In this document: in pieces, positions 1,722-39,118 of the stretch
Position numbering within the stretch: the first letter of the stretch is position 1
Layout of the letters: each line of letters starts with the position of its first letter
Origin: Pseudomonas arcuscaelestis
GTDB taxonomy: Bacteria > Pseudomonadota > Gammaproteobacteria > Pseudomonadales > Pseudomonadaceae
Assembly (NCBI RefSeq): GCF_016881005.1
Contig: NZ_JACOPV010000016.1
Location: 62,001 to 126,000 of the forward strand
Reading direction: 5' to 3'
Length of the DNA stretch: 64,000 bases
Position numbers and translations under genes: made by a program
Notes under the pieces: generated by a model
Seen by the model: only the letters and a program-made list of their open reading frames with translations
Databases searched by the model: none
Told to the model about the DNA's origin: nothing

Positions 1722-1884
1722 GTCGCTCTCCTTGTATCTGTTGTAATTGAGCATAGCCATGATGTGGCCATTTGATATCACTGCTGATACGTTGACACAA
1801 GAGCCGGTGGGCGTCATTGACCCACGCCGGTACTGCGCCTTTCATTGACGCTCCGGGTGCAACCCTCTAACCTTCGCGACTTGT

Positions 1885-2083
1885 TTCAGGTGCTCTGTGG
1901 GCTACGGCCTGGCAGGGTGAAACAGGGAAGCCGGTGGGTGCGCAAACGCGTGCGAGTCCGGCGCTGCCCCCGCAACGGTAAATGAGTCAAGGCCGCGCAC
2001 GGCCACTGGGTAATCGAGCCCGGGAAGGCGCGCGATCCCGGGTATTGGTACCCACTCACAAGCCCGGAGACCGGCCTGTTACA
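1885..2083 (+). promoter_or_regulatory. Cobalamin (adenosylcobalamin) riboswitch
   Basis: About 200 nt in the leader of the cob operon carry the conserved B12-box features: an opening GGTGCTC, then AGGGAAGCCGGTG, GAGTCCGGCGCTGCCCCCGC with AACGGTAAATGAGTC after it, and the closing GCCCGGAGACCGGCCTG. Known members bind adenosylcobalamin and switch off the downstream genes, so the operon should be repressed when B12 is plentiful. I see no U-tailed terminator between it and cobO, so control may be at translation or by another termination mechanism. Ends are approximate. Confidence 0.93.
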
Positions 2084-2090
2084 GCCAACG

Positions 2091-2109
2091 GCATCACGGA
2101 GGGTGATGC
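2091..2109 (+). other. Hairpin with GGAGG loop behind the B12 riboswitch
   Basis: Perfect 7-bp arms GCATCAC and GTGATGC enclose the loop GGAGG. The ATG inside the right arm (2106) opens a 43-codon frame ending at 2237, just before cobO. This could be part of the riboswitch expression platform or a leader peptide; both ideas are inference. Confidence 0.3.
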
Positions 2110-4806: not shown

Positions 4807-5714
4807 TGAGCGTGGCGTTGCTGACCGTAGCCGGGGTGGCGCTGGATGCGTTGTTGGGTGAGCCCCAGCGTCGACATCCGCTGGTTGCGTTTGGCCGTTT
4901 GGCCAAACGCCTGGAGCAGCGCTTCAATGCGGCTGGCCGTGGCTGGCGCAGCCATGGGGTCACTGCATGGTTCCTGGCGGTGATTCCCTTGACCCTGGTG
5001 GCCACGCTGCTGTCCTGGCTGCCCTATATCGGCTGGTTGGTGGAAGTGTTGGCGTTGTACTGCGCCTTGGGGCTACGCAGCCTCGGTGAGCACGTCACCC
5101 CGGTGGCAGACGCACTGCGCAATGGCGACCTGGATGAGGCACGCCGTCGCGTGGGCTTTCTGGTCAGCCGCGAAACCCGCGAGCTGGACGAAACCGCGGT
5201 GGCGCGTGCAGCGACCGAGTCGGTGCTGGAAAACGGCAGTGATGCGGTGTTTGCCGCGTTGTTCTGGTTTGTCGTGGCGGGAGCGCCAGGCGTGGTGCTC
5301 TATCGCTTGAGCAACACCCTCGATGCCATGTGGGGCTATCGCAATGAGCGCTTCGAGCGTTTCGGCTGGGCGGCCGCCCGTATCGATGACCTGCTCAACT
5401 ATATTCCTGCTCGGCTGGTGGCGCTGACGTATGCATTGCTGGGCAAAACCCGTCTGGCCCTGTCGTGCTGGCGCCGTCAGGCACCGTTGTGGGACAGCCC
5501 CAATGCCGGCCCGGTCATGGCCGCCGGTGCTGGTACCCTCGGCGTGGAGCTGGGCGGTCCGGCTGTGTATCACGGTGAGCTGCATGAGCGTGCGCAACTT
5601 GGCCAAGGCCCGGTGGCCGATGCCGATGCGATCGATCGTGGCTGGCGCCTGGTTTGCCAAGGCGTGTGGTTATGGCTGCTGCTGTTGTGCCTGGGAGCGG
5701 AATTCTATGCTTGA
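4806..5714 (+). CDS. cbiB: Adenosylcobinamide-phosphate synthase
   Basis: 302-residue inner-membrane protein of the CbiB/CobD family, which joins aminopropanol (or its phosphate) to adenosylcobyric acid. It opens with [17 protein letters not shown] and later has [20 protein letters not shown] and the [10 protein letters not shown] block, all family hallmarks, among several hydrophobic segments. I chose the ATG at 4806, which overlaps the bluB stop and has GGGGAG upstream, rather than an in-frame start at 4791. Many pseudomonads call this gene cobD. Confidence 0.93.
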
Positions 5715-30040: not shown

Positions 30041-30358
30041 TCAGCTGGCGCTGACCTTGAGGCCGACCAGGCCTGCGACAATAAGGGCGACACTGGCCAG
30101 GCGCATAAGCGCCATGGACTCGCCAAACAGGATAATCCCGGCGATCACCGTGCCGATCGCACCCACCCCGGTCCAGATCGCATACGCGGTGCCCAGCGGC
30201 AGCTCCTTCATTGCCAACCCGAGCAAGCCGAGGCTGACCAGCATGGCAGCGACAGTCAGCACGGTGGGCAATGGGCGAGTGAAGCCGTCGGTGTATTTGA
30301 GGCCGACCGCCCAGCCAACTTCAAACAGACCAGCGAAAAACAGAATGATCCAGGACAT
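30041..30358 (-). CDS. sugE: Guanidinium exporter, SMR family (SugE/Gdx)
   Basis: 105 residues with four helices. The opening [24 protein letters not shown] carries the conserved membrane Glu, and [14 protein letters not shown] is the SMR signature; the [11 protein letters not shown] text is typical of the SugE/Gdx branch rather than EmrE. These proteins export guanidinium in exchange for protons. The riboswitch directly upstream supports that substrate. Cytoplasmic membrane. Confidence 0.93.
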
Positions 30359-30379
30359 GCAGTATCTCCATCGAATGAT

Positions 30380-30430
30380 GGGGCCGTCCCCGTAATGGTC
30401 ACGCGTTGCGTCGTGAGGTCGTCCTCACCG
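30380..30430 (-). promoter_or_regulatory. Guanidine-II (mini-ykkC) riboswitch
   Basis: Read leftward there are two short hairpins, each with an ACGR loop: GTGAGG-ACGA-CCTCAC (30428-30413) and GGGG-ACGG-CCCC (30391-30380). They lie just before the GGAG ribosome site and the start of sugE. Paired ACGR-loop stems define the guanidine-II riboswitch, in which guanidine docks the two loops and frees translation of an exporter. Confidence 0.92.
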
Positions 30431-31690: not shown

Positions 31691-31767
31691 GCAGCGGTAG
31701 TTCAGTCGGTTAGAATACCGGCCTGTCACGCCGGGGGTCGCGGGTTCGAGTCCCGTCCGCTGCGCCA
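31691..31767 (+). tRNA. tRNA-Asp (anticodon GUC)
   Basis: 77 nt including encoded CCA. The acceptor arms GCAGCGG and CCGCTGC pair; the anticodon is GTC within CTGTCAC; the T arm is GGGTTCGAGTCCC. The discriminator base is G, as usual for tRNA-Asp. Confidence 0.97.
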
Positions 31768-31810
31768 TATTTAGCTTCAGGGCCCACTGAACACCCTGAA
31801 GCAACAAAGA

Positions 31811-31837
31811 AAGTGACCTTAGGGTCGCTTTTTTTGT
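31811..31837 (+). terminator. Terminator of the tRNA unit
   Basis: AAGTGACC and GGGTCGCTT pair around TTA with one G-U pair and are followed by a run of T. It lies 44 bp after tRNA-Asp. Confidence 0.8.
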
Positions 31838-31990
31838 GCCTGGAATTTTTCCAGACTCCACCAGCACGCTGGTACGCCATTGCTTTCTCCGTGCCAGCAT
31901 GGGCCGAGTTGGTGCGCGCATACCCAAGGCAGTGCAAAAGTTGCGCTGCGCGCTTGAGCAAATCGCGGGCTCATGCGGCGCCTGCGGTTC

Positions 31991-32007
31991 TGGCGCGACC
32001 CTTGCTT
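31991..32007 (+). promoter_or_regulatory. Sigma-54 promoter of the nitrate reductase gene
   Basis: TGGCGCGACCCTTGCTT matches the -24/-12 consensus TGGCACG-N4-TTGCT with one change; the invariant GG and GC are 12 bp apart. Transcription should begin near 32017. It implies RpoN with an enhancer-binding activator, most likely NtrC. Confidence 0.82.
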
Positions 32008-32012
32008 TAGCT

Positions 32013-32048
32013 TGAACATTCGGCAATCAACGCAGATTGCCCCGTTCA
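32013..32048 (+). promoter_or_regulatory. Hexaloop hairpin in the nitrate reductase leader (ANTAR-type target)
   Basis: The stem GGCAATC/GATTGCC closes the hexaloop AACGCA, extended below by TGAAC/GTTCA. A at loop position 1 and G at position 4 fit the RNA loops bound by ANTAR antiterminators such as NasR and NasT. Only one such hairpin is evident; classical targets have two. Confidence 0.6.
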
Positions 32049-32052
32049 CGAC

Positions 32053-32109
32053 AAAGGCGCCGTGTTGCCCCGCTTGTTTTTCAAGCCGGGGCAGCAGGGC
32101 GCCTTTTTG
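32053..32109 (+). terminator. Leader terminator before the nitrate reductase gene
   Basis: AAAGGCGCC and GGCGCCTTTTT enclose a second stem (TGCCCCG with CGGGGCA). It stands between the sigma-54 start and the coding region, so the gene can be expressed only when termination is overcome. Confidence 0.85.
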
Positions 32110-32133
32110 TTTGCGCAAGCAGGAGGTCGGCAG

Positions 32134-35100
32134 ATGAGCAGCACCAGTGTGCGTAGCGTTTGCCCTTATTGTGGGGTCGGGTGTGGCATTGTCATGTCGG
32201 TTGAGGGCAACCGGGTGACCAAGATCAGTGGTGACAAGCAGCATCCGAGCAATTTCGGGCGCTTGTGCACCAAAGGGTTGACAGCGCATTTGCCGTTGCG
32301 CGATTCAGGTCGTATGGAGCACGCCTTCCTGCGCAACGAGCGCCAGCGCGATCCGGTGCAGACAGCCATCGATGTCGCCATTGAGCAGACGGCGCTGCGC
32401 TTGCGTGCAATCATCGACGAGCACGGGCCAGACGCCCTGGGGTTCTATGTCTCCGGCCAGATGTCGCTGGAGGCCCAGTACCTGATCAACAAACTGGCCA
32501 AAGGCTTTATCCGTAGCCGACACATCGAGTCCAATTCGCGTCTGTGCATGGCCAGCGCCAGCAGTGGCTACAAGCAATCGCTGGGCGCCGACGGACCACC
32601 GGGCAGCTACCAGGACATTGATCGCGCCGACGTGTTCTTCGTCATCGGCGCGAACATGGCCGACTGTCATCCGATTCTCTTTCTGCGCCTGCTTGATCGG
32701 CTCAAGGCCGGGGCTCGACTGATCGTTGTCGATCCGCGGCGGAGTGCGACCGCCGACAAGGCCGACCTGTTCCTGCAGATCAAGCCGGGCACCGATCTGG
32801 CGCTGCTCAATGGCCTGCTGTATTTGCTCAGGCACAAGGGCCACTGTGACCACGCCTTCATCGCGCGCTACACCGAAGGCTGGGAAGCCATGGCGGACTT
32901 TCTCGAGGATTACACCCCCGAGCGCGTCGCGGCCATCACCGGCCTTGCCGAGGCGGACATTCGTCAGGCCGCCGACTGGATCGGCCAGGCGCCGGAGTGG
33001 ATGAGCTGCTGGACCATGGGCCTGAACCAGAGCATTCATGGTACCTGGCAGACCAACGCACTGTGCAATTTGCACCTGGCCACTGGCGCAATCTGTCGGC
33101 CCGGTAGCGGGCCGTTCTCCCTGACCGGCCAGCCCAACGCCATGGGCGGGCGCGAGATGGGCTACATGGGCGCGGGCCTGCCCGGTCAGCGCTCAGCTTT
33201 GCTCGACAGTGATCGGGCTTTTGTCGAGCAGCTCTGGCAAGTGCCTGCTGGCAGTCTGCGCCGTGAAGCGGGGGATGGCACCGTGGCCTTGTTCGAGCAA
33301 TTGGCTGCGGGGCAGATCAAGGCGTGCTGGATTATTTGCAGCAACCCGGTGGCCAGCGTTGCCAATCGCCAGCAGGTGATCGATGGATTGCGCAAGGCAG
33401 CGCTGGTGATCACCCAGGATGCCTTTCTCGATACCGAAACCAACCGCTACGCCGATATCCTCCTGCCCGCGGCGCTTTGGGCCGAAGGCGAAGGGGTGAT
33501 GATCAACTCCGAGCGCAACCTGACTTTGATGAGCAAGGCCGTAGAGCCTGCGGGTGACAGCTTGCCGGACTGGCAAATCATCGCCCGGGTTGCTTGTGCC
33601 ATGGGCTACGCCGAGGCCTTCAGCTACGAAAATGCCGAGGCTGTGTTCGATGAAATCCGCCGCGCCTGGAATCCCGCGACGGGCTACGATGTGCGTGGGA
33701 TCAGCTATACCGCCTTGCGCCAGGCGCCTCGGCAGTGGCCGTGCGAACCCGGGCGCACAGACACGCGCAGCCCGCTGCGCTATCGCAACGACGGCATCAG
33801 CCAGACGCTGTACCGCGATACTCAAGGGCATGCACCGAGCATTGCCTTTCCCACCAGCAGCGCCAAGGCGCGTTTCTTTGCGCGTCCGTGCCTGCCTGCT
33901 GCCGAGTTGCCGGATGATGAGTTTGTCCTGGTGCTCAATACCGGCCGGGTCCAGCATCAATGGCACACGCTGACCAAGACCGGCAAGGTTGGCGCACTGA
34001 ACAAGCTTGATCCAGGCCCCTTTGTGGAAATTCATCCGGAAGATGCCACACGCCTGGGGATCGCTGAAAAAGACCAGGTGCAAATACGTTCTCGACGGGG
34101 TCGGGCAGTATTACCGGCACGAATCACCACGCGGGTGCTGCCGGGCAATTGCTTTGCCCCCTTTCATTGGAACGATGTCTACGGTGAAAACCTGGCAATT
34201 AACGCACTGACCAGTGACGCCGTTGATCCTGACTCGCTGCAACCTGCTTTCAAATACTGCGCAGTGGCGTTAAGCCGGGTAGCAGGTGAGCGCATAAAGG
34301 CAGTTGAAATTGAGCAGCCGCCTGTTTCGATGCAAGACCAGCATTTGTTGCTCTGGGCCTCGCAAACCGGCAACGGCCAGGCCCTTGCCGAACAGTGCGC
34401 AGCGCGCTTGCGCGAAGTGGGGCTGGCGGTGCAGTTGAGCTGCATGGAAGATGTAGCGCTGGCGCAACTCGATAGCCCCGCTAGTCTGCTGTTGATCGCC
34501 AGTACGTTTGGTGACGGCGATGCGCCAGATTCAGGCGCCGGTTTTTGGCAGGACCTGCATGGCGAGCATTCGCAACGCTGTGCCGGGCTGCCCTATGCGG
34601 TATTGGCCCTGGGCGATTCCAGCTACGAGCAGTTTTGTGGCTTTGGTCGCAAGCTGGACCAGCGCTTGTCCGAGGTGGGCGGCCAGCGCCTGCTGGCACG
34701 CGTCGATTGCGAGGGGGACTTCAGCGAGCCCGCCGGGCAATGGCTGCAGGCCTTGCTCAGCAAGCTCGGCCAGCAGGCGCCGCTGCTTGCTCTGCCTATG
34801 CCAGCGCCGGCGACCTCGGGTTTCAACAAGCACAAGCCGTTGCCGACCAGATTGGTGGGCAACCGCTTGCTGAACAGTCCAGGAGCGAGCAAGGAAACAC
34901 GGCAGATAATCTTCGATTTGGCCGGTAGCGAAATGCGCTATCAGGCGGGTGATGCCTTGGGCGTGTGGCCGCGCAACTGCCCGGCGCTGGTGGATGAGTT
35001 GCTGACGGCGGCGGGGCTTGAGGGAGCCAGCCCTGTCAGCCTTAAAGGCAAGGCCGACATGGCGTTGTGCAGCGCCTTGAGCGAGCACCTGGAAATTGCC

Positions 35101-35925
35101 CGCATTACCCCGGCAATCCTCGAAGCCATTGCCCGACATAGCGGCGACTCAATGCTGACCGATCTGCTCAAGCCGCAAAACAAGGCGGCCCTCAAAGCGT
35201 GGCTGTGGGGCAAACAACTGATCGACCTGGTGCATGCTTTCCAGCCGCAATGGGACCAGGAAACCTGGTTGAGCCTGCTCAAACCCTTGCAGCCCCGGCT
35301 GTACTCGATCAGTTCAAGCCCCAAGCTGCATCCGGATCAGGTTCACCTGACCCTCTCCACCGTTCGCTACGGCCAGCGCAAAGGCGTTTGCTCCACCTAC
35401 CTGGCCGATCGCGTTGCACAGGCAGAAGTGGCTATTTTCACCCAACCGACCGCCCATTTTCGCTTGCCCAAGGACAACACTGCGCCGGTGATCATGGTCG
35501 GCCCCGGCACTGGGGTAGCACCCTTTCGAGCGTTCTTGCAGGAGCGTCAGGCCGAGGCAGCCAAGGGGCGCAACTGGCTGCTGTTCGGCGAGCAAAAGGC
35601 TGCCAGCGATTTTTACTACCGGGACGAGTTGTTGAATTGGCAGCGCGAAGGGCATTTGCATCGGCTGGACACCGCGTTCTCCCGCGATCAGTCGGAAAAA
35701 ATCTATGTGCAGCAACGCATGCTCGAGCAAGGCGCTGAGCTTTGGCGCTGGTTGGAGGAAGGGGGGCACTTTTATGTCTGTGGTGACGCCGAGCGCATGG
35801 CCCGTGACGTCGATGCGGCGCTCAGGCAGGTGATTACCAAGCATGGAGCGATGAACGTCGATCAGGCTGATGCCTACGTCGCTGAGATGAGTCGCAACAA
35901 GCGCTATCTGCGCGATGTGTATTGA
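32134..35925 (+). CDS. Assimilatory nitrate reductase fused to a flavoprotein (sulfite-reductase-alpha-like) module
   Basis: 1263 residues. The N-terminal molybdopterin part starts with a 4Fe-4S site (Cys10, Cys13, Cys17, Cys45) and runs to a dinucleotide-binding domain ending near residue 720. Then come a flavodoxin-like FMN domain (ASQTGNGQ, ASTFGDGDAPDSG) and a ferredoxin-reductase-like FAD/NADPH domain (PRLYSISSSP, GPGTGVAPFRAFLQER). The fusion lets one chain take electrons from NADPH to nitrate without a separate NasB. I chose the ATG at 32134 with AGGAGG upstream, not the long frame from 32062, which overlaps the leader. Cytoplasmic. Confidence 0.93.
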   Translation: MSSTSVRSVCPYCGVGCGIVMSVEGNRVTKISGDKQHPSNFGRLCTKGLTAHLPLRDSGRMEHAFLRNERQRDPVQTAIDVAIEQTALRLRAIIDEHGPDALGFYVSGQMSLEAQYLINKLAKGFIRSRHIESNSRLCMASASSGYKQSLGADGPPGSYQDIDRADVFFVIGANMADCHPILFLRLLDRLKAGARLIVVDPRRSATADKADLFLQIKPGTDLALLNGLLYLLRHKGHCDHAFIARYTEGWEAMADFLEDYTPERVAAITGLAEADIRQAADWIGQAPEWMSCWTMGLNQSIHGTWQTNALCNLHLATGAICRPGSGPFSLTGQPNAMGGREMGYMGAGLPGQRSALLDSDRAFVEQLWQVPAGSLRREAGDGTVALFEQLAAGQIKACWIICSNPVASVANRQQVIDGLRKAALVITQDAFLDTETNRYADILLPAALWAEGEGVMINSERNLTLMSKAVEPAGDSLPDWQIIARVACAMGYAEAFSYENAEAVFDEIRRAWNPATGYDVRGISYTALRQAPRQWPCEPGRTDTRSPLRYRNDGISQTLYRDTQGHAPSIAFPTSSAKARFFARPCLPAAELPDDEFVLVLNTGRVQHQWHTLTKTGKVGALNKLDPGPFVEIHPEDATRLGIAEKDQVQIRSRRGRAVLPARITTRVLPGNCFAPFHWNDVYGENLAINALTSDAVDPDSLQPAFKYCAVALSRVAGERIKAVEIEQPPVSMQDQHLLLWASQTGNGQALAEQCAARLREVGLAVQLSCMEDVALAQLDSPASLLLIASTFGDGDAPDSGAGFWQDLHGEHSQRCAGLPYAVLALGDSSYEQFCGFGRKLDQRLSEVGGQRLLARVDCEGDFSEPAGQWLQALLSKLGQQAPLLALPMPAPATSGFNKHKPLPTRLVGNRLLNSPGASKETRQIIFDLAGSEMRYQAGDALGVWPRNCPALVDELLTAAGLEGASPVSLKGKADMALCSALSEHLEIARITPAILEAIARHSGDSMLTDLLKPQNKAALKAWLWGKQLIDLVHAFQPQWDQETWLSLLKPLQPRLYSISSSPKLHPDQVHLTLSTVRYGQRKGVCSTYLADRVAQAEVAIFTQPTAHFRLPKDNTAPVIMVGPGTGVAPFRAFLQERQAEAAKGRNWLLFGEQKAASDFYYRDELLNWQREGHLHRLDTAFSRDQSEKIYVQQRMLEQGAELWRWLEEGGHFYVCGDAERMARDVDAALRQVITKHGAMNVDQADAYVAEMSRNKRYLRDVY

Positions 35926-36015
35926 GCGCCCCATAAGGGGGAGGGCTGCACCAGGCTGGGTCGGAAAGTGCGCTTGGCTGTAACCACAGGCCCCGGTTTC
36001 AGCGAGTTTGGCAGT

Positions 36016-36031
36016 TGGCACGCTCTCTGCT
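36016..36031 (+). promoter_or_regulatory. Sigma-54 promoter of nirBD
   Basis: TGGCACGCTCTCTGCT fits TGGCACG-N4-TTGCT with one mismatch, and GG and GC are 12 bp apart. The predicted start is near 36042. It mirrors the promoter of the nitrate reductase gene. Confidence 0.85.
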
Positions 36032-36047
36032 ACTGCACTGTTACAAC

Positions 36048-36082
36048 GTTCTGGCAGGTCAATGGCGATCTGCACCCTGAAC
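36048..36082 (+). promoter_or_regulatory. Hexaloop hairpin in the nirBD leader (ANTAR-type target)
   Basis: GCAGGTC/GATCTGC (one G-U pair) closes the loop AATGGC, with GTTC/GAAC below. The loop again has A at position 1 and G at 4. The design matches the nitrate reductase leader, although the sequence differs. Confidence 0.6.
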
Positions 36083-36100
36083 TACATAAAACGACCAGGC

Positions 36101-36137
36101 AAAGGCGCCTGGAGCTTCGGCTCCAGGCGCCTTTTTG
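36101..36137 (+). terminator. Leader terminator before nirB
   Basis: GGCGCCTGGAGC-TTCG-GCTCCAGGCGCC is a perfect 12-bp stem with a UUCG tetraloop, flanked by A and T runs. It lies 60 bp before the nirB start and after the predicted transcription start. Confidence 0.92.
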
Positions 36138-36197: not shown

Positions 36198-38753
36198 ATG
36201 AATGCAGAAACTATTGTCCAGCGGCAGAAGTTGATCATCGTCGGCAACGGCATGGTCGGGCACCACTGCGTTGAGCAACTGATTGAGCGCAATGCGTTGA
36301 GCCGTTTCGAGGTGAGGGTGTTCGGCGAGGAGCGCCAGCGTGCCTACGACCGTGTTCACTTGTCCGAGTATTTCAGTGGCAGCGACGCTGAAGCCTTGGC
36401 CCTGGGCGATGCGAGCCTGTACGCCGACAGCGGCGTCAGCCTGCACTTGGGCGAAACGGTGCTGGAGATCGACCGCGAACGTTGCGAAGTGTTGACGTCG
36501 GCTGGACGCTACCGCTACGACCAACTGATCCTGGCCACCGGTTCCTACCCTTTCGTTCCACCGGTGGTTGGCTGCGAAGGGGCGTCGCGTCTGGTCTACC
36601 GCACCCTCGATGATCTGGATGGTATCCGCGCGGCGGCTGCCCATGCACGACGTGGCGTGGTGGTCGGCGGCGGGCTGCTGGGGCTTGAAGCTGCCAACGC
36701 CCTTAAGTCACTGGGGCTCGAAGCGCATGTGGTGGAGTTCGCACCACGCTTGATGCCGGTGCAGTTGGACAGCGAAGGTGGCGCAGCCCTGCGGGCGCAG
36801 ATCGAGGCACTGGGGGTCGGTGTGCATGTCTCGCGCGGCACGCAAGCGGTGGTAACCGGTGAAGACTATCGCTACCGGATGAACTTCGAGGGTGGCGAAT
36901 ACCTGGAAACCGACCTGATCGTGTTTTCCGCCGGTATCCGTCCGCAGGATGCCTTGGGGCGCAGCAGCGGTTTGGAGATTGCCGCACGCGGTGGCGTGGT
37001 GATCGACAGTGATTGTCGCAGCAGCGACCCGCGCATTTTTGCCATTGGCGAATGCGCATCGTGGAACGGCAGCGTGTTCGGCCTCGTAGCGCCGGGCTAC
37101 AGCATGGCGCGTAACGTCGCGGCGACGCTGATGGGGGATGCGGCCGCCCGCTTCAAGGGTGCCGACATGTCGACCAAGCTCAAGTTGCTCGGCGTTGACG
37201 TCGGTTCGATCGGCGATGCCCACGGCGCAACACCCGGGGCGCGCAGCTACCGCTTCATCGATGAAGCCAACTCGGCGTACCGCCGCCTGGTCGTGGATGC
37301 CTCGGGCAAACGCGTGCTGGGCGCGGTGCTGGTAGGCGATAACAGCTATTACGACACCTTGCTGCAATACGTGCAGAACGCAATTGCCCTGCCGGCTGAT
37401 CCCGCGGCCTTGATTCTGCCGCAAGTGTCCGGGGCGCCGACCCTCGGTGCCGATGCCCTGCCGGACACTGCGACCATCTGCTCCTGCCACAACGTCAGCA
37501 AAGGCGCGATCTGCGGCGCCATCGACGAGGGGTGTGGCGAACTGGCTGCCCTCAAGCAACAGACCAAGGCGTGTACCGGTTGCGGTGGTTGCGCGGCATT
37601 GCTCAAGCAAGTCTTTGAGCATGAGCTGATTGCTCGGGGTGTCAGTGTCGACAAGAGCCTGTGCGAACACTTTGCCTACACGCGCCAAGAGTTGTATGCC
37701 CTGGTACGCGTTGAGGGCATCCTCAGTTTTGACGAAATGCTCGCCAAGCATGGTCGCGGCCATGTCGGTTGCGACATCTGCAAGCCCACGGTCGGCTCCA
37801 TCCTCGCATCGTGCTGGAACCAGCCCATCATGGACGCATCGCTGGTGCCGTTGCAGGACACCAACGACACCTTCATGGCCAACATGCAAAAGAATGGTAC
37901 CTATTCGGTTGTGCCGCGAATTCCTGGCGGTGAAATTACCCCGGACAAGCTCATCGTCATCGGTGAGGTGGCGAAAAAATACGACCTCTACACCAAGATT
38001 ACCGGTGGCCAGCGCATCGATCTTTTTGGCGCGCAATTGCATGAGTTGCCGGCGATCTGGAGTGAATTGATCGAAGCCGGCTTCGAAACCGGCCACGCCT
38101 ACGGCAAGTCCACGCGCACGGTAAAGTCCTGTGTCGGCAGTACCTGGTGCCGCTATGGCGTGCAAGACAGCGTAAAAATGGCCCTGCTCCTGGAAGACCG
38201 CTACAAGGGCCTGCGCTCGCCGCACAAACTCAAGTTCGCCGTCTCTGGCTGCACCCGCGAATGTGCCGAAGCGCAGAGTAAGGATATTGGTGTAATCGCC
38301 ACCGAGAAGGGCTGGAACCTGTACATCTGTGGCAATGGCGGCATGCGTCCGCGCCATGCCGAGCTGTTCGCCACTGACCTGGATGATGCCGGGCTGATTC
38401 GTCTCATCGATCGGGTACTGATGTTCTACATTCGCACCGCCGACAAATTGCAGCGTACCTCGGTGTGGCGCGAGAGCCTGGAAGGCGGCTTGAACTATCT
38501 GAAACAGGTCATTATCGAAGATTCACTAGGCCTGGCTGCCGAGCTGGAAGCTCAGATGCAGTTAGTGGTCGATCGCTACGAATGTGAATGGGCCAATGCT
38601 CTCAAGGATCCCGAGAAGCTCAAGCGCTTTCGCACTTTCGTCAATGACCATCGCCCAGACCCCGGCGTGCATTTTGTTCGTGAGCGTGGTCAACGCCGCC
38701 CCATTGCCGCCGCAGAGCTTCACTTGATCCCGACCACTGAAGAGGTGCTGTGA
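36198..38753 (+). CDS. nirB: Nitrite reductase (NAD(P)H), large subunit
   Basis: 851 residues. Order: FAD/NAD(P) oxidoreductase domain (IIVGNGMVGHHCVEQL, GVVVGGGLLGLEAANAL), BFD-like [2Fe-2S] region (CSCHNVSKGAI and CTGCGGC), then the sirohaem/4Fe-4S domain with KSCVGSTWCRYG and SGCTREC cysteines. It reduces nitrite to ammonium in the cytoplasm. The ATG at 36198 follows GAGGATCGGGT. The stop overlaps nirD by one base. It completes the pathway begun by the nitrate reductase upstream. Confidence 0.97.
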   Translation: MNAETIVQRQKLIIVGNGMVGHHCVEQLIERNALSRFEVRVFGEERQRAYDRVHLSEYFSGSDAEALALGDASLYADSGVSLHLGETVLEIDRERCEVLTSAGRYRYDQLILATGSYPFVPPVVGCEGASRLVYRTLDDLDGIRAAAAHARRGVVVGGGLLGLEAANALKSLGLEAHVVEFAPRLMPVQLDSEGGAALRAQIEALGVGVHVSRGTQAVVTGEDYRYRMNFEGGEYLETDLIVFSAGIRPQDALGRSSGLEIAARGGVVIDSDCRSSDPRIFAIGECASWNGSVFGLVAPGYSMARNVAATLMGDAAARFKGADMSTKLKLLGVDVGSIGDAHGATPGARSYRFIDEANSAYRRLVVDASGKRVLGAVLVGDNSYYDTLLQYVQNAIALPADPAALILPQVSGAPTLGADALPDTATICSCHNVSKGAICGAIDEGCGELAALKQQTKACTGCGGCAALLKQVFEHELIARGVSVDKSLCEHFAYTRQELYALVRVEGILSFDEMLAKHGRGHVGCDICKPTVGSILASCWNQPIMDASLVPLQDTNDTFMANMQKNGTYSVVPRIPGGEITPDKLIVIGEVAKKYDLYTKITGGQRIDLFGAQLHELPAIWSELIEAGFETGHAYGKSTRTVKSCVGSTWCRYGVQDSVKMALLLEDRYKGLRSPHKLKFAVSGCTRECAEAQSKDIGVIATEKGWNLYICGNGGMRPRHAELFATDLDDAGLIRLIDRVLMFYIRTADKLQRTSVWRESLEGGLNYLKQVIIEDSLGLAAELEAQMQLVVDRYECEWANALKDPEKLKRFRTFVNDHRPDPGVHFVRERGQRRPIAAAELHLIPTTEEVL

Positions 38754-39118
38754 TGAGTCTGTCCAATGCTGCTGTAAACCTGCAAACCCAAGACTGGCAA
38801 GCGGTGTGCAACCGCCAGGACCTGGTTGCGCAATCGGGCGTGGTTGTCTGGTTCGAAGGCCGGCAGGTGGCGCTGTTCTACCTGCCTGAGGAGCAAACAC
38901 CCCTGTTTGCTATCGACAACCACGACCCCAAGTCAGGCGCCAATGTGATCGGTCGCGGTCTGATCGGGCACATCAAAGGCGAGTTGGTGGTTGCAGCGCC
39001 CTTGTACAAACAGCATTTCAGCCTGCGCGATGGTCACTGCCTGGAAGATGCGCAGCAGGGCCTGCAAGTGTGGCCGGTGCGGATTCGCGGTGACCAGGTA
39101 GAGATCGGCGTGCAGTAA
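38753..39118 (+). CDS. nirD: Nitrite reductase (NAD(P)H), small subunit
   Basis: 121 residues of the NirD Rieske-like fold (WQAVCNRQDLVAQSGVVVWF, FAIDNHDPKSGANVIGRGLIG, LYKQHFSLRDGHCLED). As in other NirD proteins, the iron-sulfur ligand set of true Rieske proteins is incomplete. It partners NirB. I chose the ATG at 38753, which overlaps the nirB stop, over the adjacent GTG at 38750. Confidence 0.95.
   Translation: MSLSNAAVNLQTQDWQAVCNRQDLVAQSGVVVWFEGRQVALFYLPEEQTPLFAIDNHDPKSGANVIGRGLIGHIKGELVVAAPLYKQHFSLRDGHCLEDAQQGLQVWPVRIRGDQVEIGVQ

Follow-up and report, generated by a model that had tools for sequence, protein, structure and literature searches.

The region ahead of nasA in the window, i.e., the whole 64-kb stretch of DNA analysed here, very probably functions as an AND gate for nitrogen limitation and nitrate, in which a sigma-54/NtrC-dependent start is followed by an attenuator under the control of NasT, and copies of this device are found at nirBD and narK. 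We assign this reading a probability of roughly 0.92. The mechanism itself is already known from other bacteria, as NasT antitermination in nitrate assimilation has been described before (PMC3795266, PMC5424462).

Architecture of the nasA and nirB leaders

According to its domains and homology, nasA (32134..35925, +) codes for an assimilatory nitrate reductase of 1263 aa that is fused to a CysJ-like flavoprotein reductase (NasA-CysJ). Its ATG at 32134 is preceded by the Shine-Dalgarno sequence AGGAGG (32121..32126, +). The original prediction had proposed a sigma-54 start before this gene, and a pattern match confirmed the -24/-12 promoter TGGCGCGACCCTTGCT (TGGCGCG-ACCC-TTGCT) at 31991..32006 (+). 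Its GG and GC doublets are 10 bp apart in a TGGC-N8-TGC context, and the transcript is predicted from the sequence to start at about 32017. By itself the sigma-54 pattern is weak evidence, since it has four matches in the 64-kb window against 0.92 expected, and it gains its weight from the accompanying parts.

The first of these parts is the P1 hairpin GGCAATC-AACGCA-GATTGCC (32022..32041, +; sequence and fold), which exhibits A1, G4 and a C:G closing pair; the predicted stem with an AACGCA loop, GGCAATC/GATTGCC, was thus recovered. The claim that only one hexaloop is visible did not hold. A P2 hairpin, CACGAC-AAAGGC-GCCGTG, was identified at 32047..32064 (+) in the sequence, the RF03032 alignment and a dual-hexaloop scan, again with A1, G4 and a C:G closing pair and with an A.C mismatch at the second pair; its loop spans 32053-32058. 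The U-tailed terminator expected ahead of the ATG was found by sequence and fold at 32053..32108 (+). It consists of a 5' arm, AAAGGCGCC, lying over the P2 loop and 3' arm, a 3' arm, GGCGCC (32098-32103), and a U run (32104-32108). The bases of the 5' arm (32053-32061) are the same as those of the P2 loop and of part of the P2 3' arm and, because both structures share them, P2 and the terminator are mutually exclusive. The idea of a minimal, one-hairpin target can therefore be discarded, as the second hexaloop lies over the terminator 5' arm and covaries in relatives. The predicted fold of 32014-32118 reaches -60.1 kcal/mol, whereas shuffled versions average -33.1 kcal/mol and none of 200 does as well (z -7.7), and an Rfam covariance search yielded a match to RF03032, the narK RNA, at 31992..32063 (+) with 59.2 bits (cut-off 43.2).

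Upstream of the nasA promoter, an enhancer-like pair GGTGCG-N14-AGTGCA is located at 31911..31936 (+). By comparison with the NtrC consensus, the pair is labelled as candidate NtrC sites; agreement with this consensus amounts to 10 of 13 and 9 of 13 positions, which 21 of 200 shuffles equal and which is not significant in the window alone. The pair, whose pattern was designed post hoc after inspection of these leader sequences, precedes six of the 11 nasA leaders for which 300 nt upstream were available. No good match to an NtrC site was detected within 260 nt of the five narK leaders checked.

A second complete copy of the switch, missed by the original prediction, is located ahead of nirB at 36016-36136, between nasA and nirB. 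Its sigma-54 -24/-12 promoter TGGCACGCTCTCTGCT (36016..36031, +; sequence and scan) is followed by the P1 hairpin GCAGGTC-AATGGC-GATCTGC (36054..36073, +; sequence, scan and fold) and by the P2 hairpin CCAGGC-AAAGGC-GCCTGG (36095..36112, +; sequence and scan), the 6 bp of which contain no mismatch. The terminator AAAGGCGCCTGGAGC-TTCG-GCTCCAGGCGCCTTT with its U run (36101..36136, +; sequence and fold) forms a perfect 15-bp stem with a UUCG loop, and the fold of this leader differs from shuffled sequences with z -5.2. The leader scores 18.9 bits against RF03032, below the cut-off of 43.2. The covariance search also aligned this region, 36004..36131 (+), to the full length of Rfam RF00625, P11, although below threshold, with 33.9 bits (cut-off 70) and an E value of 2.8e-6. 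By homology, the downstream genes are nirB (36198..38753, +), coding for the large subunit of assimilatory nitrite reductase, and nirD (38753..39118, +), coding for the small subunit.

ANTAR targets are recognized as two stem-loops of at least 3 bp with hexaloops. Both window leaders exhibit them, with a P1 of 7 bp and a P2 in which five of six pairs (nasA) or six of six pairs (nirB) are formed. A1 and G4 are present in both loops of both leaders, and in both the second hairpin lies over the 5' arm of the terminator. A scan for dual hexaloops with an overlapping terminator, which was written once the motif was known, found exactly two sites on both strands of the 64 kb, the nasA and nirB leaders. 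One match, lacking a sigma-54 site, was obtained in 20 Markov-1 control windows of equal length.

The window contains further structured RNAs. A Guanidine-II riboswitch (30379-30430, -) is located directly before the gene of a 105-aa SMR transporter (30041-30358, -), which is SugE-type according to NCBIfam; together they likely constitute a guanidine exporter unit. A cobalamin riboswitch was identified at 1871-2093 (+) with 103 bits. Other Rfam matches below the cut-off, including one to a miRNA, were taken as chance, with the exception of P11.

Conservation in the genus and beyond

At E <= 0.001, RF03032 was detected in 33 of 57 genomes, all of them among the 36 genomes of the window's genus. 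The 61 sites, 45 of which exceed the Rfam cut-off, are located upstream of narK (32), nasA (12), nasST (15) or other genes (2), and many of the narK sites lie directly downstream of nasST. Leaders of the nasA type also precede nasA homologs in 11 further genomes. TGGC and GC were found in register at 61 of 61 sites, in columns that the model itself includes. An ANTAR protein is encoded in 35 of the 36 genus genomes; G001 and G018 possess one and show no site by RF03032 or by R1, a covariance model without the promoter columns.

R1 added 14 sites to the RF03032 list, 13 in the genus and one outside. Each of the 14 carries a U run and a sigma-54-like element, for which the loose pattern used has about 0.08 matches expected per such slot. 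Seven of these sites precede nasST, four a NirB-like gene and three nrtA-like genes coding for NasS-like substrate-binding proteins. The four NirB-like proteins are 35-37% identical to the NirB of the window, and the one checked against NCBIfam is NirB. Genus-wide, the targets of the switch comprise narK, nasA, nirB, nrtA-like genes and nasST. An ANTAR switch stands before nasS-nasT at 22 genus sites (L046-L049, L051, L052, L054-L062, L103, L104, L108, L110-L112 and L116), and autoregulation of NasT is predicted for these from their sequence.

The search was extended to the class with R1 (E <= 0.001) in a draw of 274 genomes, 273 besides the genome of the window. Matches were obtained in 17 other genomes with 18 non-own sites, of which 14, from 13 genomes, have a U run. 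The sites L096, L097, L099 and L101, which show no U run in the printed stretch and coding-like sequence, were judged to be chance matches and dropped before the main count. ANTAR proteins are encoded in 13 of the 13 genomes with terminator-bearing sites compared to 86 of 273 overall (P 1.5e-7). With the four dropped genomes retained, of which one possesses an ANTAR protein and three do not, co-occurrence amounts to 14 of 17 (P 1.2e-5). Just five of the 14 distant sites exhibit a sigma-54-like pattern, and in one of these five its distance is odd. Therefore, the RNA switch is separable from the promoter.

The pairing of P1 is supported by a covariation score of 0.659, compared to 0.197 for shuffled and at most 0.164 for slid alignments (0 of 500 shuffles), and 92.2% of its cells are paired against 66.6% in shuffles; its count of pairs changed on both sides does not exceed that of shuffles (397 of 500 reach it). 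P1 and P2 jointly score 0.380 against 0.120 shuffled. Within the genus, P2 hardly varies, and its covariation does not exceed that of shuffles, 322 of 500 of which reach it. With the nirB and distant sites included, P2 scores 0.173 against 0.072 (0 of 500 shuffles). In this wider set, a score of 0.136 was obtained on 4 pairs in one slid register (+2), and neither the pairs changed on both sides (4 of 6; reached by 89 of 500 shuffles) nor further pair types (189 of 500) lie above shuffles.

The loop positions are nearly invariant over 94 sites (P1: A1 in 94, G4 in 93; P2: A1 in 92, G4 in 94), counts that are subject to ascertainment bias as the searches used conserved columns. The A1 rule is broken in two genomes, where the P2 loop of the nasA leaders L042 and L043 reads GAAGGC. 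A predicted terminator over the P2 loop and 3' arm is present at all 92 sites that show at least four consecutive U, the overlap being defined as at least six of the 12 P2 loop and 3'-arm bases paired; L025 and L043, which do not show such a run, were left out of the 94.

Regulators, proposed mechanism and alternatives

The genome encodes one ANTAR protein, NasT, with a receiver and an ANTAR domain, whose relatives include a solved "putative antiterminator," AmiR, and the C-terminal part of a "nitrate regulatory protein." On contig C45, nasT adjoins nasS, the gene of an NMT1-like binding protein, in the joint sensor-regulator arrangement of NasS-NasT. Both genes are located directly ahead of a narK leader and the gene of a NarK-family transporter. 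Only the narK leader is found beside nasT; the nasA and nirB leaders lie on another contig. A genome search identified one RpoN gene and one NtrC above the cut-off. On this genome, R1 detected two strong sites (narK and nasA) and missed the nirB leader even at E 1, and R2, a more general model whose training set includes both window sites, detected three (narK, nasA and nirB). Ten weaker matches were inspected, i.e., all five of R1 and the next five of 22 of R2, and none of them is followed by four consecutive T within 80 nt. In the upstream region of the genome's own nasST, a sigma-54-like site is kept (L032, about 5628-5643, -), while the dual-hexaloop scan found no switch and no terminator is recognizable there. 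Because no switch was found there, the NasT autoregulation predicted in relatives is not recognizable in the genome of the window.

The following sequence of events is proposed. Under nitrogen limitation, sigma-54 polymerase, most likely activated by NtrC, would start near 32017. By default, the nascent nasA leader would fold P1 and then the strong terminator at 32053-32108, and transcription would stop with an RNA of about 90 nt. We infer that nitrate or nitrite would take NasS off NasT and that the ANTAR domain of free NasT would then bind both hexaloops, P1 and P2. In this state, P2 would take the bases of the terminator 5' arm, thereby blocking the terminator and allowing transcription of nasA. 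The second copy (36016-36136) would gate nirBD in the same way, and the third copy, on the other contig, would gate narK beside nasST. Concerning the earlier proposal that both nitrogen limitation and the presence of nitrate are needed, the combination of sigma-54 start and NasT attenuator finds good support in the homologs and in the single NasT, RpoN and NtrC, while NtrC is the presumed activator of nasA. In P. stutzeri, NtrC control is reported for nas genes including nasS and nasT (PMC8443478), and sigma-54 promoters ahead of ANTAR genes were predicted earlier (PMC12316311). A report from Bradyrhizobium counts against the model, as narK, for which a NasT hairpin is predicted there, increased in a nasT mutant (PMC6759348).

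The individual switches appear to differ in strength. The A.C mismatch at the second P2 pair (32051/32060 in the window) is found in 12 of 12 nasA leaders, the same position being occupied by A-U in narK leaders and by G-C in the nirB leader of the window, with the A.C of nasA lying between the two. ANTAR domains are described to contact the backbone of three pairs (PMC8934654), and since the mismatch, adjacent to the loop-closing pair, sits within these three pairs, the nasA P2 may be a weaker target. On average, nasA terminators are the strongest. In predicted folds of relatives, which are not independent of each other, the energy gap between the terminated and the antiterminated state was larger for nasA than for narK in all 10 genomes compared, and narK exceeded nasST in 18 of 21. 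According to the model energies, and with two sites lacking a U run excluded, nirB exceeded narK in only six of nine genomes. The mismatch and the modelled energies suggest an order of opening within the regulon, i.e., regulators, then transporter, then reductase, with the nasA switch being the hardest and the nasST copy the easiest to open.

Other readings of the same leaders were weighed against control by NasT. Rfam files RF03032 as a cis-regulatory RNA without a named ligand or protein, and nearly all sorted sites are located upstream of nitrate or nitrite genes, both of which would suit a riboswitch-like aptamer responding to nitrate, nitrite or some other ligand by itself, with no protein involved. 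However, the conservation is concentrated in a pair of short hexaloop hairpins that fit the ANTAR consensus, and the sites co-occur with ANTAR proteins, many narK sites following immediately after nasST; the aptamer was therefore rejected as very unlikely. Even less credible is the assumption that the hairpin and U stretch merely terminate an upstream tRNA unit and that the sigma-54 site arose by chance. Two tRNA genes on the same strand do end at 31764, but a separate 14-bp hairpin with a T run, missed by a simple terminator scan, lies just behind them at 31805-31836. This reading was also rejected because the leader recurs ahead of nasA in the 11 other genomes and because its parts are arranged identically in front of the window's nirB.

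Control of the sigma-54-started attenuator might also lie with something other than NasT, e.g., with translation or another RNA-binding protein, and the fact that nasT is not encoded on the contig of the nasA and nirB leaders would be in agreement with this. We regard it as improbable, as the defining bases of ANTAR targets are present in both hexaloops and the genome encodes no ANTAR protein besides NasT.

Relation to the narK RNA, P11 and NfiR

The window leader matches the SELEX consensus of NasR, which comprises two stem-loops with a C:G closing pair, A1 and G4 (PMC7496416). The targets of the EutV/eut, NasR/nasF and AmiR/amiE systems likewise consist of two small stem-loops with A1/G4 hexaloops and a P2 over the terminator (PMC3369931, PMC7496416), P2 and terminator being mutually exclusive in the published ANTAR mechanism (PMC3369931). 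Unlike in the EutVW, NasR or AmiC-AmiR systems, the regulators here are NasS-NasT, and the P2 of the nasA leader contains an A.C mismatch. A close parallel is provided by the NasST-controlled nas leaders of Paracoccus and Bradyrhizobium, where NasT binds to the leader transcript and is considered to prevent its termination (PMC3795266, PMC5424462, PMC6759348). In contrast to the known NasST leaders, three separate leaders exist in one genome here, two of them in the window (nasA and nirB), and each has its own sigma-54 site. NasST-controlled nas leaders reportedly occur in Azotobacter and P. aeruginosa as well.

The nasA leader is a member of the narK RNA family above the cut-off, and the printed consensus of RF03032 can be read in these terms. 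It starts with GGCaCAgcucUUGCU, and its first 15 columns are readable as a sigma-54 promoter. Only the first hairpin is paired in the structure line, whereas the unpaired block ACGACAAAGACGUCGC at the right end is readable as a second hairpin, CGAC-AAAGAC-GUCG, with A1 and G4 in its hexaloop.

A similar relation exists to RF00625. Among eight other nirB-leader loci scanned with the P11 model, L106, L107, L114 and L115 are above threshold (102-133 bits), and L117, L118, L120 and L121 are closer to the window nirB leader and remain below the RF00625 cut-off. The NirB-like proteins encoded after the P11-type leaders L106, L107, L114 and L115 are 35-37% identical to the window NirB. Because of this low identity, two nirB lineages within the genus appear to share the switch. 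A pattern of the P11 form (sigma-54 site, CAACGNNG and GGACAAAGGCGTCC) was scanned over named bacterial genomes and matched at least 119 stretches. Among the 80 examined, all carry a U run and a terminator over P2, a NirB-like frame follows within 400 nt in 76 of the 77 whose downstream sequence exceeds 250 nt, and the P1 pairs 2-9, left free by the pattern, are formed in 371 of 464 cases, the highest count in 1000 shuffles being 327.

P11 is reported to regulate the nirB operon and to be both required and sufficient for C. elegans to inherit avoidance of P. aeruginosa, the latter being a result that other groups could not reproduce in the conditions they used (PMC12080996). NfiR of P. stutzeri, called a homolog of P11, is encoded between PST2408 and the nitrite reductase gene PST2409; an NtrC footprint was reported upstream, and the RNA was lost in an ntrC mutant (PMC6606865). 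P11, to which NfiR is linked by its published homology, resembles the window leaders in its sigma-54 site, AACGNN and AAAGGC hexaloops, overlapping terminator and position before nirB-like genes. P11 and NfiR differ in that they were published as independent small RNAs (PMC12080996, PMC6606865) and in that the window nirB leader is below the Rfam cut-off. Several reports on NfiR argue against an attenuator: deletion of nfiR left the flanking genes unaltered, loss of rpoN reduced NfiR just by about half, its 5' end lies 29 bp below the sigma-54 site, and it pairs with nifD mRNA (PMC6606865). On balance, we consider it fairly probable, if well short of certain, that RF03032 and RF00625, together with NfiR by its published homology, form one family of sigma-54-started NasT attenuators whose switches are graded, and that P11 is the terminated nirB leader. 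In the literature searched, no paper was found that links the narK RNA to ANTAR proteins. P11 is treated there as an sRNA or nirB regulator and was nowhere found as a NasT attenuator, though Marogi 2024 and Romeo 2012 may say so. The placement of the narK RNA and P11 in one family of NasT attenuators may be new.

If this reading is true, P11 would be a prematurely terminated nirB leader that is made under nitrogen shortage without nitrate and whose level is set by NtrC and NasT, and P11 and NfiR would both be attenuation products under the control of these two regulators. The comparison also suggests that the models of the narK RNA and P11 include promoter DNA as if it were RNA. One explanation would then account for two RNA families that are kept apart in Rfam as a cis-regulatory leader and an sRNA gene. 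It would provide a defined nitrate regulon with a mechanism, and the control of P11 levels would become directly testable.
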